Source: Corallococcus macrosporus
Lineage (GTDB): Bacteria; Myxococcota; Myxococcia; Myxococcales; Myxococcaceae
Direction of reading: 5' to 3'
DNA: 64,000 nucleotides
NCBI RefSeq assembly: GCF_017302985.1
Contig: NZ_JAFIMU010000007.1
Span: 1 to 64,000 of the forward strand
The translations under genes and the position numbers were made by a program. Below the pieces are notes generated by a model. It was given only the letters and a program-made list of their open reading frames with translations. It was not told where the DNA came from and ran no database searches. Positions 17,950 to 33,081 of this stretch are shown here, one piece after another. The stretch's first letter is position 1. Each line of letters starts with the position of its first letter.

Positions 17950-18369
17950 ATGAAACGCCTGCCTGCCCTGATGGTCGCCCTGGTCCTCGGTGGGGCGTGT
18001 GCCCACACGCCGCCCAAGTCGGACCTGGAAGAGCTCCGCCCCGTCGTGGAGGGCTTCCACAAGAACCTGCGCTGGAGGAACTACCGCGCCCTGTCCGGCT
18101 TCCTCGTCCCCGAGGAGCGCAAGGACTTCGAGCGCCAGCGCCGCGAACTCCACGACGAGCGCGACCTCACCGTCACCGACTTCGAAATCGAGGACGTGAA
18201 GCTCGCCGAGGACGGCCGCCGCGCCACCGTCCACAGCCGCATCCAGTGGATGCGCCTGCCCTCCGTCTCCGAGCAGACCGACACCGTCACCTCGGAGTTC
18301 GTCTTCCGGGACGGCGTCTGGCTGCTGGAGAAGCAGCACGACGGTCCCTTCGCAGGCGAGCTGGAGTAG
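17950..18369 (+). CDS. Small exported or lipoprotein-like hypothetical protein
   Basis: A 139-residue protein with an N-terminal export signal (basic start, ALMVALVLGG, then a Cys at about residue 17). The lipobox (GGAC after Leu-Gly) is imperfect, so lipidation is uncertain. The mature part resembles small alpha+beta domains of the NTF2-like type (VEGFHKNLRWRNYRALSGFL, GRRATVHSRIQWMRL, VWLLEKQ). It is divergent from the TPR gene (92-base gap). It converges on the minus-strand RNA gene, whose terminator lies 15-60 bases past its stop. Confidence 0.65.
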   Translation: MKRLPALMVALVLGGACAHTPPKSDLEELRPVVEGFHKNLRWRNYRALSGFLVPEERKDFERQRRELHDERDLTVTDFEIEDVKLAEDGRRATVHSRIQWMRLPSVSEQTDTVTSEFVFRDGVWLLEKQHDGPFAGELE

Positions 18370-18383
18370 GCGCCCCTACCCCG

Positions 18384-18513
18384 CAAAAAAATCGCCCACC
18401 GTCTCGGGGCCGGCCGAGACGATGGGCGTCGAGGGTTCCCCAATGGAACCCCCTACCAGGGTGACGATGTCGCGCGGTACTTCCGGCCCGCTGCGACTTC
18501 GCCGTGTTGCCTG
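18384..18513 (-). ncRNA. Sigma-54-driven structured small RNA (candidate Pxr homologue)
   Basis: About 130 nt, read from near 18513 down to the T-run at 18391-18385. From 5' to 3': ACCAGG (18515-18510) pairs with CCTGGT (18460-18455), enclosing a branched hairpin (GTCGC with GCGAC, then GCGG with CCGC); a second hairpin pairs GGGTTCC-type arms (18451-18445 with 18439-18433); the third is the 15-bp terminator stem. No open frame fits. It has its own promoter (18522-18537) and lies between two convergent genes. M. xanthus has a sigma-54-controlled small RNA, Pxr, that blocks fruiting-body development; folded shape and promoter type fit, and I recall it lying in an intergenic region of this kind, but I could not compare sequences. 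Confidence 0.75.
18385..18428 (-). terminator. Strong intrinsic terminator of the small RNA
   Basis: On the minus strand a 15-bp stem (18428-18414 with 18407-18393, one G-T pair) with a short GC loop is followed by GAT7. A-run at 18385-18391 on the plus strand is the complement of the T-run. It faces the minus strand only, so it does not serve the plus-strand lipoprotein gene. Confidence 0.9.
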
Positions 18514-18521
18514 GTCTCTAG

Positions 18522-18537
18522 AGCAATGCTGGTGCCA
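18522..18537 (-). promoter_or_regulatory. Sigma-54 (-24/-12) promoter
   Basis: Minus strand reads TGGCAC-CAGCA-TTGCT. The GG (18536-18535) and GC (18524-18523) are exactly 12 bases apart, as in the consensus TGGCAC-N5-TTGCW. The predicted start, 12 bases after the GC, falls at 18511-18513, at the foot of the first RNA stem. Confidence 0.85.
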
Positions 18538-18623
18538 ACCTTCGAGCCCCCCTGCCCCACCCCGGGTTCCCACGGGAAATCAGGCACTTAACCCACCTCA
18601 CTCCCCGGCTCCGCCGTCCCATG

Positions 18624-18686
18624 CCTGACAGTCCTGTCAGGCCCTCCCTGCCATGGCGCCACGTTCCCCCTGACATGGCTGTCAGG
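18624..18686. promoter_or_regulatory. Two tandem 18-bp palindromes, probable enhancer (bEBP) sites
   Basis: CCTGACA-N4-TGTCAGG occurs at 18624-18641 (spacer GTCC) and 18669-18686 (spacer TGGC), with perfect 7-base arms and 45 bases between centres. They lie about 110-175 bases upstream of the predicted RNA start, the usual place for dimeric NtrC-type activators of sigma-54 polymerase. A loose extra half-site (CTGAC) is at 18690-18694. They sit in the 3' region after the epimerase stop, where no other use is apparent. Confidence 0.75.
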
Positions 18687-18715
18687 GAACTGACGGCGGG
18701 CCCCATGAAAAGCCG

Positions 18716-19678
18716 CTACTCGCCGATGACGGAGCGGATGGTGTCCCGCATGGAGTGCTGGGCCTTCCAGCCCACGTCCTGGACCCAGCGGTTGCCGTCC
18801 ACGGCGCAGAGGAACTGGATGTGGTCCAGCTCCGGCGGCGGGAAGTTGGCCAGCCGGTAGCGGAACATCAGGCCCAACAGCGGCCGGGCCACCGGGTGCG
18901 GCACGGGGATGGGGGTGTGGCCCAGCTCGCGCAGCACCGCGGACAGGGGCACCTGGCCGGGGCCGACGACGTTGTAGACGCCCTTGGGCTCCGGGCGCAG
19001 GGCCTCCATCATGGCGCGGGCCACGTCCTCCACGTGGATGAGCTGCACCATGGGGTCGAAGCCCGCCATGGTCCACGGGTAGCGCAGGCGCAGGTAGTGG
19101 GACGGCGCGTTCTTGATGGTGGGCCCGACGATGTGGACGGGCCGCAGGATGACCGTCTCGATGTCGGGGTGCTTCCAGAAGAAGCTGTGCGCCAGCATGT
19201 CCACTTCGATGAGGTCGCGCACGCCGGAGAAGCGGCTGGCGGCCATCAGCGGCGCGTCCTCCGTGAGGAAGTTGGAGTTGTCCGGGCTGGGGCCGTAGAC
19301 GTTGGCCGAGGACAGCACCACCACCTTCTTCACGCCGTACTTCGCGCAGTACTCCAGCAGGCGCGTGGTCCCCACGACGTTGAACGAGTGGTGCTCCTCC
19401 TCGCTCATGCGCGGGTCATGCATGATGCCCATGTGGATGACGGCGCGGATCTCGTTCTTGCGGAAGACGTCCTCCGCCTTCTTCTTGCGCAGGTCCAGCT
19501 GGTGCATCTCGACGTCCTTCGGCTTGCCCACGAAGGGGCGCCGGTCGATGCCGATGATGCGCTCGCGCTTGTGCAGCTGCTTCGCCAGCGTGCGGCCCAG
19601 GTTGCCGCTGATGCCGGTGACGACCACCGCCGGGCGCTTGTCCGCGACGGTGTCCTTCTCCTCGGTGGAAGCGCTCAC
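18716..19678 (-). CDS. NAD-dependent epimerase/dehydratase (extended SDR)
   Basis: A 320-residue protein: nucleotide-binding GISGNLGRTLA near residue 23, IGIDRRPF with the acidic residue for NAD, a central SSANVYGPS and PVHIVGPT, all typical of extended short-chain dehydrogenases acting on nucleotide sugars or related substrates. A classical YxxxK was not placed with certainty, so activity on sugars is an inference. It starts with a GTG at 19678 that overlaps the acyltransferase stop (GTGA). The pair may modify a lipid-linked or sterol-like substrate. Confidence 0.82.
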   Translation of the reverse strand: MSASTEEKDTVADKRPAVVVTGISGNLGRTLAKQLHKRERIIGIDRRPFVGKPKDVEMHQLDLRKKKAEDVFRKNEIRAVIHMGIMHDPRMSEEEHHSFNVVGTTRLLEYCAKYGVKKVVVLSSANVYGPSPDNSNFLTEDAPLMAASRFSGVRDLIEVDMLAHSFFWKHPDIETVILRPVHIVGPTIKNAPSHYLRLRYPWTMAGFDPMVQLIHVEDVARAMMEALRPEPKGVYNVVGPGQVPLSAVLRELGHTPIPVPHPVARPLLGLMFRYRLANFPPPELDHIQFLCAVDGNRWVQDVGWKAQHSMRDTIRSVIGE

Positions 19679-31944: not shown

Positions 31945-32031
31945 GGAGGCGTGGCCGAGCGGTTGAAGGCAGCGGTCTTGAAAACCGCAGAAGGTGAAAG
32001 CCTTCCGTAGGTTCGAATCCTACCGCCTCCG
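31945..32031 (+). tRNA. tRNA-Ser(UGA)
   Basis: An 87-nt class II tRNA with long variable arm. Acceptor GGAGGCG pairs with CGCCTCC; the anticodon loop CTTGAAA gives TGA; the T arm has GTTCGAATC. The 3' CCA is not encoded (next bases ATTTT). It reads UCA/UCG/UCU-family serine codons. Confidence 0.95.
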
Positions 32032-32073
32032 ATTTTGAGCTTGAGTTTCGCGGTTCTTTGACAGAGAAGAGTT

Positions 32074-32163
32074 GGAGAGATGGCCGAGAGGCTGAAGGCA
32101 CAGGTTTGCTAAACCTGCATACTCGAAAGGGTATCGAGGGTTCGAATCCCTCTCTCTCCGCCA
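32074..32163 (+). tRNA. tRNA-Ser(GCU)
   Basis: A class II tRNA with acceptor GGAGAGA/TCTCTCC, anticodon loop TTGCTAA giving GCT (reads AGC/AGU) and a long variable arm. Here the 3' CCA (32161-32163) is encoded. Forty-two bases follow tRNA-Ser(UGA). Confidence 0.95.
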
Positions 32164-32192
32164 CTTGATGTAAAGCAGCAGCCGGAAGAAAT

Positions 32193-32269
32193 GCTCCCTT
32201 AGCTCAGCTGGATAGAGCGTCGGACTACGAATCCGAAGGCCGGAGGTTCGAATCCTCCAGGGAGCGCCA
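32193..32269 (+). tRNA. tRNA-Arg(ACG)
   Basis: A 77-nt class I tRNA including encoded CCA: acceptor GCTCCCT/AGGGAGC, anticodon loop CTACGAA giving ACG. A34 must be deaminated to inosine to read CGU/CGC/CGA. The gene for the enzyme that does this, tadA, starts 24 bases downstream. Confidence 0.95.
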
Positions 32270-32292
32270 CTTCTTCTTCAGGCGCGCACATC

Positions 32293-32760
32293 ATGAGTGA
32301 CGACATCGCTTTCATGCAGCAGGCTCTTGAGCTCGCGCGGGAAGCAGCTTCACTCGGGGAAGTTCCGGTAGGTGCGGTGGCGGTGCTGGACGGAAACGTC
32401 GTGGGCACGGGCTACAACCGCCGCGAATGCGACCGGAACCCCTTTGCCCACGCCGAGATGATTGCCCTGGCAGCTGCTGCCAAAGCGCGTGATGCGTGGC
32501 GACTCTCCGGGGTGACCCTCTACGTGACGTTGGAGCCGTGCGCGATGTGCGCCGGTGCGCTGGTCCAGTCTCGTGTCACCCGACTCGTCTTTGGTACGAT
32601 GGACCCGAAAGCGGGCGCGGTCGGCTCGCTGTACAACCTGGTGGAAGAGCCCCGGCACAACCACCGGCTTCAAGTGACAAGCGGCATCCTGGCGGAAGAG
32701 AGTCGCCAGCTTCTCAAGACGTTCTTCGAGCGCTTGCGCGCGAAGCGACGTGAAAACTGA
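32293..32760 (+). CDS. tadA: tRNA adenosine(34) deaminase TadA
   Basis: A 155-residue zinc deaminase that converts A34 to inosine in tRNA-Arg(ACG). Zinc ligands and catalytic Glu are His53-Ala-Glu55 and Pro82-Cys83-x-x-Cys86 (HAEM, PCAMC), with GALVQSR following. The start at 32293 (ATG) is directly after the tRNA-Arg gene. Length and motifs are normal for the family. Lies in a conserved neighbourhood with tRNA-Ser, SRP RNA and dnaX. Confidence 0.95.
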   Translation: MSDDIAFMQQALELAREAASLGEVPVGAVAVLDGNVVGTGYNRRECDRNPFAHAEMIALAAAAKARDAWRLSGVTLYVTLEPCAMCAGALVQSRVTRLVFGTMDPKAGAVGSLYNLVEEPRHNHRLQVTSGILAEESRQLLKTFFERLRAKRREN

Positions 32761-32766
32761 ATATCT

Positions 32767-32853
32767 GGAGAGCTGGCCGAGTGGTCGAAGGCACCTGACT
32801 CGAAATCAGGCGTACCGGCAACGGTACCGTAGGTTCGAATCCTACGCTCTCCG
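32767..32853 (+). tRNA. tRNA-Ser(CGA)
   Basis: A class II tRNA: acceptor GGAGAGC/GCTCTCC, anticodon loop CTCGAAA giving CGA (reads UCG), long variable arm. No 3' CCA is encoded. It starts 6 bases after the tadA stop. Confidence 0.95.
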
Positions 32854-32866
32854 CTCCAAAGTCTCT

Positions 32867-32953
32867 GGAGAGGTGGCCGAGCGGTTGAAGGCGCACGCCT
32901 GGAACGCGTGTATATCTGAAAGGGTATCGTGGGTTCGAATCCCACCCTCTCCG
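32867..32953 (+). tRNA. tRNA-Ser(GGA)
   Basis: A class II tRNA: acceptor GGAGAGG/CCTCTCC, anticodon loop CTGGAAC giving GGA (reads UCC/UCU), long variable arm. No 3' CCA is encoded. With the other three genes in this cluster it completes the serine set (UGA, GCU, CGA, GGA). Confidence 0.95.
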
Positions 32954-32986
32954 TTGTTATTTTCGAAGTCGCAGCACGGATTTTGT

Positions 32987-33066
32987 GGTCGGGACAACGT
33001 GGGGGCGCGAACCCCGCCAGGTCCGGAAGGAAGCAACGGTAGCGTACTTCCGCGTGTGTCCCGGCC
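32987..33066 (+). ncRNA. ffs: Signal recognition particle RNA (4.5S type)
   Basis: About 80 nt. The closing stem pairs GGTCGGGACA with TGTCCCGGCC; the apical domain holds the conserved CAGGTCCGGAAGGAAGCA that binds Ffh. It is the RNA core of the SRP, which targets membrane and exported proteins. It lies between tRNA-Ser(GGA) and the dnaX neighbourhood, as in many bacteria. Confidence 0.92.
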
Positions 33067-33081
33067 GTTCTGTTTCACCGC

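Follow-up and report, generated by a model that had tools for sequence, protein, structure and literature searches.

Several small RNAs (sRNAs) of the Gammaproteobacteria, namely GlmY/GlmZ, Qrr and CrcZ, depend on sigma-54. In the classical arrangement of such promoters, an activator site precedes an IHF site (common, though not universal) and then the sigma-54 site. Base pairing is the usual mode of action of bacterial sRNAs. CsrB and RsmZ are instead RNAs that sequester proteins, with repeated hairpins bearing fixed ANGGA loops and a copy number that varies between species.

For myxobacteria, the sole characterised sRNA that we noticed in the open-access literature, among the matches listed, is Pxr, which holds back development while nutrients are plentiful. 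The accessible portion of PMC5568312 places pxr between nla19/pxrR and an NADH dehydrogenase gene, and that of PMC5684412 describes the myxobacterial hosts as devoid of Hfq. PMC9548883, in its accessible part, reports sRNAs among M. xanthus transcripts but leaves them unnamed and excludes them from its comparison, so that a transcript of the locus described here could sit unnamed in such data. The open-access literature yielded no description of this RNA among the matches listed.

The locus lies in a 64-kb window, by which we mean the whole stretch of DNA analysed. A first-pass annotation had proposed a sigma-54-dependent sRNA with its own enhancers, set between two convergent genes and possibly identical to Pxr. 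The predicted parts of the locus, as we now read them, are the following.

17950..18369, plus strand: 139-aa putative lipoprotein gene (signal recognised by eye), the convergent neighbour, without a Pfam family
18385..18512, minus strand: predicted small RNA gene, with a sigma-54 site upstream, a terminator and a match to the covariance model R1 (see below)
18512 to 18385, minus strand: predicted transcript, starting near 18512 and ending inside the T-tract, as deduced from promoter and terminator
18385..18391, minus strand: T7 tract of the terminator
18393..18428, minus strand: hairpin B, the terminator, a 15-bp stem with hexaloop CCGGCC at 18408-18413, supported by covariation
18431..18453, minus strand: hairpin A, a 9-bp stem with pentaloop AUUGG at 18440-18444, supported by covariation
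18457..18512, minus strand: 5' hairpin domain from the predicted fold, accessory and lineage-variable
18522..18537, minus strand: sigma-54 promoter TGGCACCAGCATTGCT, exact consensus TGGCAC-N5-TTGCW
18578..18590, minus strand: IHF-like site TAAGTGCCTGATT, one mismatch to the consensus YAANNNNTTGATW
18625..18640, no strand assigned: enhancer palindrome 2, CTGACAGTCCTGTCAG, of the form CTGACA-N4-TGTCAG
18670..18685, no strand assigned: enhancer palindrome 1, CTGACATGGCTGTCAG, of the same form, 45 bp from palindrome 2
18716..19648, minus strand: NAD-dependent epimerase/dehydratase gene, start approximate and stop at 18716, upstream and co-directional

The elements claimed by the first-pass annotation were recovered as described. 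No other exact TGGCAC-N5-TTGCW match than the promoter exists in the 64 kb (expectation 0.03; a match turned up in 3 of 100 shuffles), and the window has CTGACA-N4-TGTCAG at the two positions given and nowhere else (0.01 expected; none of 100 shuffles has two). The 15-pair terminator stem (18428-18393) followed by T7 was also found, where 0.5 terminator-like sites are expected in the 901-base region concerned. The flanking genes are indeed convergent, but the RNA itself is co-directional with the epimerase gene and lies downstream of it. Folding of the 130 nt returned the three claimed stems (-73.8 kcal/mol, z = -6.06; none of 200 shuffles folded as well), of which only the two 3' ones are conserved across the family.

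As the annotation had also stated, no reading frame of at least 8 codons lies inside the predicted transcript of the window. Such frames were absent from 11 of the 13 transcripts checked, and those present in the other two (L020 and L133) are unalike. We ruled out a coding gene, no frame being common to the transcripts checked; the 71-nt pitch of the tandem units described below, which is not a multiple of 3, likewise speaks for a non-coding sequence. Rfam 15, run on the whole window at the gathering threshold, returned solely tRNAs and the small SRP RNA, and its best sub-threshold match at the sRNA locus scored 19.6 bits against a cut-off of 79. The tRNA genes, five in number (four of them 87 nt long), occupy 31945-33074 together with the SRP RNA that follows them.

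For the conserved part of the RNA, we prepared a 3' core alignment (A1) from 30 loci, gathered by whole-gene DNA similarity and giving 21 distinct rows, and built from it a covariance model of the two 3' hairpins (R1). The model matches the window at 18384-18466 with 104 bits, the window sequence being among those from which it was built; a weak second match, at 1788-1868, looks like the normal terminator of a preceding gene and was discarded. In A1, the proportion of paired cells is 97.2%, and double changes occur at 10 pairs. The alignment surpassed all 500 shuffles in every covariation measure but one of the five, further pair types (161/500).

A wider MAFFT alignment (A2) comprised 77 distinct units, with several rows per array or genus. 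Here 93.3% of cells pair, double changes occur in 17 of 24 pairs, and 191 cells carry them, versus 63 ± 12 in shuffles. None of 500 shuffles attained any of the five measures and the signal was lost when partners were slid, but these controls should not be taken as probabilities, because the rows are related and represent units rather than independent events. Two pairs of A2, formed by columns 6 with 22 and 37 with 54, are unpaired in 40/77 and 39/77 rows, respectively. The covariation anticipated among relatives was thus found family-wide for the two 3' stems, whereas the 5' stem varies by lineage. The distance from promoter to loop is 70-81 nt in 36 of 71 loci and 117-125 nt in 32, with single loci at 94, 157 and 169 nt; the 36 short ones have no room for the 5' hairpin, which we read as accessory.

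The pentaloop AUNGG (letters A, T, G and G) is present in all 77 units. The hairpin B loop string CGGCCGGCCCCG is also present in 77/77, by selection, since the units were found through this string plus a loose A[TA].GG test; its occurrence in 30/30 A1 loci, gathered by DNA similarity, constitutes more independent support. Outgroup units close the pentaloop with A-U or G-C instead, the loop itself being unchanged (the fold of L096 included), and the hairpin B loop CCGGCC, closed by CGG/CCG, stays invariant while the stems covary. These alignments show the conserved part of the RNA to be a pair of adjacent hairpins with covarying stems and fixed loops, and the locus specifies a conserved, non-coding RNA structure.

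At E ≤ 0.01, R1 matched 95 of the 96 family genomes and all 26 genera. The sole family genome without a match is 79% complete; all 83 with a completeness of 90% or more and a contamination of 5% or less have one. In a phylum set of 195 genomes (these 96 included), 12 of the 99 outside the family matched. Six did so strongly, with E from 7e-21 to 2e-12 (G035, G036, G043, G048, G052 and G055), three of these having genomes of 2.9-3.0 Mb; the other six, at E 3e-4 to 0.01, were treated as chance. The search by DNA similarity matched 39 of 59 genomes, including 16/16 of the same genus (the window's genome among them) and 18/19 others of the family. Five marginal matches outside the family were left out, one of which (G043) is strong by R1.

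Scanning named genomes with a pattern yielded 57 stretches, and almost every one bears a myxobacterial name. L115 and L148 are exceptions, with no name beyond Delta- and Proteobacteria, as is L144 under its title Comamonas. The carriers include M. xanthus AM003 (L133). The L144 record (BNCN01000011.1, titled Comamonas sp. KCTC 72670) holds a myxobacterial locus, with an epimerase 91.5% identical and three sRNA units; the assembly is probably mislabelled or mixed. The RNA also occurs in MAGs with genomes of 2.1-3.0 Mb, one of them from sheep colon, others bearing isolate names that presumably denote a termite-gut series. These carriers probably do not form fruiting bodies, and the developmental role put forward in the first-pass annotation found no support in our data. 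Diverged second copies are found elsewhere in two genomes: one (G023:C6:375215-375297, L104) comes with a palindrome and a sigma-54 site of its own, and the other (G055:C818, L099) is without a palindrome, its best sigma-54 site having 3 mismatches.

Judging from these comparisons, the locus is almost certainly a real sRNA gene, and we infer an sRNA family of the Myxococcaceae and a few neighbouring families.

The promoter region is conserved along with the RNA. Of 71 distinct loci, 51 have a best sigma-54 site that fits the consensus exactly, and in 66 it deviates by at most one base. In 72 rows, letters outside the search key are also strongly conserved (94% for the A of TGGCA and for the first T of TTGC, 97% for the T after TTGC); in the 30 bases upstream, conservation in the same rows is at most 60%. 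The palindrome TGACA-N4-TGTCA (UAS) is present with at most one mismatch in 60/71 loci, with two copies in 32, and missing in 11; shuffles gave 0.15 loci per set. Its positions cluster near -157, -147, -112, -102/-100 and -91 from the promoter start, in steps of about one helical turn, with a few at -126, -123, -94 and -93; where a locus has two copies, the usual distance between them is 45 bp. With one mismatch allowed, an IHF-like site occurs in 33 of the 71 loci, versus 0.25 in shuffles, and is absent from 38; it lies 41-42 or 52-54 bp before the promoter start, again phased. Activator site, IHF-like site and sigma-54 site together form the classical arrangement.

The window's genome contains TGACA-N4-TGTCA at 8 sites, of which the sRNA accounts for two (none for the reversed control). 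The composite of UAS and sigma-54 site was found in 61/96 family genomes and its reversed control in 0/96; the remaining 35 are without an exact composite. Control of the sRNA by sigma-54 is, on these sequence features, highly probable. The spread of R1, the covariation and the phased promoter and UAS together favour the proposal of a sigma-54-dependent sRNA with its own enhancers.

The enhancer motif offers a handle on a sigma-54 activator. The window's genome has 53 Sigma54_activat matches, and such matches were also listed in six small genomes; a comparison of 29 frames from 30 loci yielded several shared groups and singled out none. Two M. xanthus motifs, CT(C/G)CG(C/G)AG for Nla28 (PMC9765219) and GCGCA-N5-TGCGC for NmpR (PMC11841059), are likewise sites of NtrC-family activators before sigma-54 promoters, but in the form given in the accessible parts of those papers neither resembles TGACA-N4-TGTCA. 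Neither TGACA nor TGTCA occurs in the accessible main text of a Desulfovibrio sigma-54 survey (PMC4641369).

In three small-genome records (L101, L102 and L148), the sigma-54 site has 3, 1 and 2 mismatches, respectively, and there is no TGACA palindrome: the promoter arrangement has decayed or been replaced. These three and two further small-genome MAGs (L117 and L131) keep the core with no TGACA palindrome seen, and show by eye repeated GTTGCAT..GCA-like motifs upstream, which suggests a changed activator specificity.

In the genus g41 (Myxococcus/Pyxidicoccus, M. xanthus included), the unit is multiplied. All 27 genomes have two to four adjacent same-strand R1 matches among the matches listed, where the other genera have none. 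The 17 array records, which include three same-contig pairs (L090/L116, L091/L160 and L106/L140), contain 2-4 units whose loops follow one another every 71 nt, apart from a single spacing of 70 in one genome; examples are L089, L090, L091, L092, L093, L106 and L133, beside other g41 records. The arrays inspected by eye have one sigma-54 site, before the first unit. In every array record, the tail of the last unit differs from the internal ones: the last unit ends in GTTTCTTTT, a full terminator tail, and internal units have weakened T-tracts, ending in GATTCTTG, GACTCTTG, GCTTCTTG or GTTTCTTG. The exception is the first unit of one genome (L106/L140), which ends in GATTTTTTA and keeps six T; there, transcription may stop after the first unit. 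Predicted folds of three arrays (L133, L090 and L089) show pairing between units. Since internal tails are weakened and loops kept, it seems that what was once a terminator module now serves as an internal domain, repeated with its loop held fixed.

The enhancer also serves other genes. Among the composite sites listed, 22 were read and lead to the sRNA, others adjoin R1 matches by their coordinates, and the remaining 16 were all read. Thirteen of these 16 precede genes for small lipoproteins or exported proteins (lipobox or signal peptide by eye), which form about five groups of related genes and are therefore not 13 independent cases. The other three comprise one before lpxC (L210, G027:C771, in one genome; LpxC was confirmed by Pfam), one before another frame and one unresolved. 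Four small proteins, namely the lipoprotein next to the sRNA and three encoded by other targets of the enhancer, were compared with Pfam and matched no family.

One of the 13 targets is in the window's own genome (G000:C7:3153836, MRRWLLLLLPLLAGC...). There, at G000:C7:3153836-3153909 (L172, L208), the enhancer and a sigma-54 site stand before a small lipoprotein gene, MRRWLLLLLPLLAGCEPG..., an arrangement also seen in L184, L187, L207 and L211. At another own-genome site, C4:1013818, a near-consensus TGGAACGGCCCTTGCT precedes, by eye, an exported protein, and no sigma-54 promoter was seen at the other four TGACA-N4-TGTCA sites of this genome. Since small lipoproteins and exported proteins predominate among its remaining targets, the signal behind the enhancer might be an envelope condition, sensed through an envelope-linked activator, a reading we hold to be evenly balanced.

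Overall, the locus appears to represent a genuine, family-wide, sigma-54-dependent sRNA that is apparently undescribed. As a whole, the reading that we favour and think somewhat probable is that of an undescribed RNA family under an envelope-linked sigma-54 activator, acting through its loops, perhaps by titration. A dimeric NtrC-type activator would bind the two TGACA-N4-TGTCA palindromes, IHF would bend the DNA in many species, and sigma-54 polymerase would start near 18512 and stop at hairpin B. The AUNGG and CCGGCC loops would be the working surface of an RNA that may act stoichiometrically, offering an RNA-binding partner a multivalent decoy. Stoichiometric, multivalent action is suggested by the g41 arrays, where the unit is multiplied behind one promoter with T-tracts weakened and loops kept.

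Taken by itself, loop-based titration rather than mRNA pairing falls a little short of an even chance. The fully specified version, a sigma-54-switched decoy that titrates an RNA-binding protein in an envelope response and is built of 71-nt tandem units in Myxococcus, is tentative and, as it stands, unlikely. If it were true, a Csr-like circuit of separate origin would exist in hosts that lack CsrA and, reportedly, Hfq. A sponge for CsrA itself was rejected, CsrA (PF02599) being found in 0/96 family genomes.

The strongest rival is a trans-acting antisense sRNA that blocks or destabilises mRNAs, such as those of envelope proteins, by pairing with them through its invariant loops or the single strands beside these, the tandem units merely raising the dose. 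Pairing being the general rule for bacterial sRNAs, and the exported-protein regulon resembling that of envelope-stress sRNAs, this explanation has some appeal. However, the RNA offers no conserved unstructured seed, its 5' part varying in length and sequence, and strong stems close its short loops, so we consider antisense action less likely than not.

Far less probable is that the RNA is no independent gene but serves the convergent lipoprotein gene, either as its cis-antisense regulator or as a terminator shared with it. Its end does lie 15 nt after the lipoprotein stop codon, and 99 of the 120 loci fetched have a relative of the lipoprotein in the vicinity of the RNA (the same genome may recur among the 120, and two of them hold no unit recognised by the script). 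Yet synteny is not obligatory: for the outgroup loci L095-L100, the surrounding 1.8-3.0 kb that were fetched contain neither neighbour, the lipoprotein gene is upstream on the same strand in L023/L120 and about 1.4-1.6 kb off in L125, L126, L137, L154 and L155, and the second copy in L104 sits elsewhere with promoter elements of its own. A terminator, moreover, requires no sigma-54 site, palindromes or invariant loops. These observations largely refute the cis-antisense and terminator-only readings, and we judge them very unlikely.

The two remaining rivals involve Pxr. We took the pxr SL1 (AGGCTGAAGGYGGTTCCCCCC) and 3' end (...GGGCCGCCTTCTTTT) from published primers. The SL1 pattern has a single match in the window's genome, with one mismatch, at G000:C7:1104102-1104122, i.e., outside the window, 1.09 Mb away on the same contig. 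This locus has a sigma-54 site, TGGCATGGCACCTGC, a C-rich loop and the 3' end GGGCCGCCTTCTTTT. Directly upstream of it is a gene for a 484-aa NtrC-like response regulator (Response_reg, Sigma54_activat, HTH_8; L047), and on its other side one for a membrane protein that by eye is NuoN-like, in keeping with the published setting of pxr; the sRNA locus, in contrast, is flanked by lipoprotein and epimerase genes. In a 13.2-Mb relative (L051, G022:C1:10862800-10865500), pxr itself is present as four tandem copies about 300 bp apart, each preceded by a TGGCATGG.GAGTGC site (by eye).

One could imagine an anti-Pxr RNA, in which GGGGAAC of the sRNA pairs with the Pxr SL1 loop GUUCCCC and lifts the developmental block. 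In the window's genome, the sRNA and pxr share two perfect 8-nt complementary stretches, but co-folding in 9 genomes gave interaction energies no better than those of shuffled sRNA: in the best case 11/60 shuffles were as good or better, and in the other genomes 22-53/60. The distributions differ as well, the pxr SL1 pattern (at most 2 mismatches) being found in 26 of 35 family genomes searched, versus 95/96 for the sRNA. Anti-Pxr pairing was consequently rejected as highly improbable.

As for the suggestion that the RNA is Pxr or a Pxr paralogue, the likeness of design (a sigma-54 promoter and three predicted stems) and the existence of Pxr paralogues, as the accessible part of PMC5568312 reports, leave it a negligible chance, since the genome has its own pxr elsewhere with the published sequence and neighbours, the two genes share no same-strand match above 7 nt, and R1 recognised no pxr among 17 pxr-pattern loci (best 13.4 bits, E = 0.09). 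A pattern for sRNA-like units with T5 left pxr unmatched.

We return to the favoured reading, a sigma-54-dependent RNA that would act through its loops, and to how it compares with the described systems. It is more widespread than the pxr SL1 pattern, and it is present in M. xanthus, where it can be deleted; its loops and tandem units provide a sharp test of RNA action in bacteria that have no CsrA and reportedly no Hfq. With GlmY/GlmZ, Qrr and CrcZ it has in common the enhancers and the -24/-12 promoter before a small structured RNA; Rfam showed no relation between them and the sRNA. The likeness to CsrB/RsmZ would be one of function, as suggested by analogy: the loop of the sRNA is AUNGG followed by paired bases, not ANGGA, and its hosts are without CsrA, but it shares with those RNAs the repeated hairpins, the fixed GG-containing loop and the variable copy number.

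Pxr of M. xanthus, as far as the accessible parts of PMC5684412, PMC5568312 and PMC11928866 describe it, is alike in its sigma-54 promoter, its length of about 110-130 nt and its three predicted stem-loops, as well as in a spread centred on the same bacteria and in having tandem copies in some genus. It differs in sequence, loops, locus and neighbours. The multiplication also takes another form, for the Cystobacter pxr paralogues have, according to the portion of PMC5568312 at hand, a sigma-54 promoter each, whereas the tandem units of the sRNA, spaced by about 71 nt, stand behind a single one.
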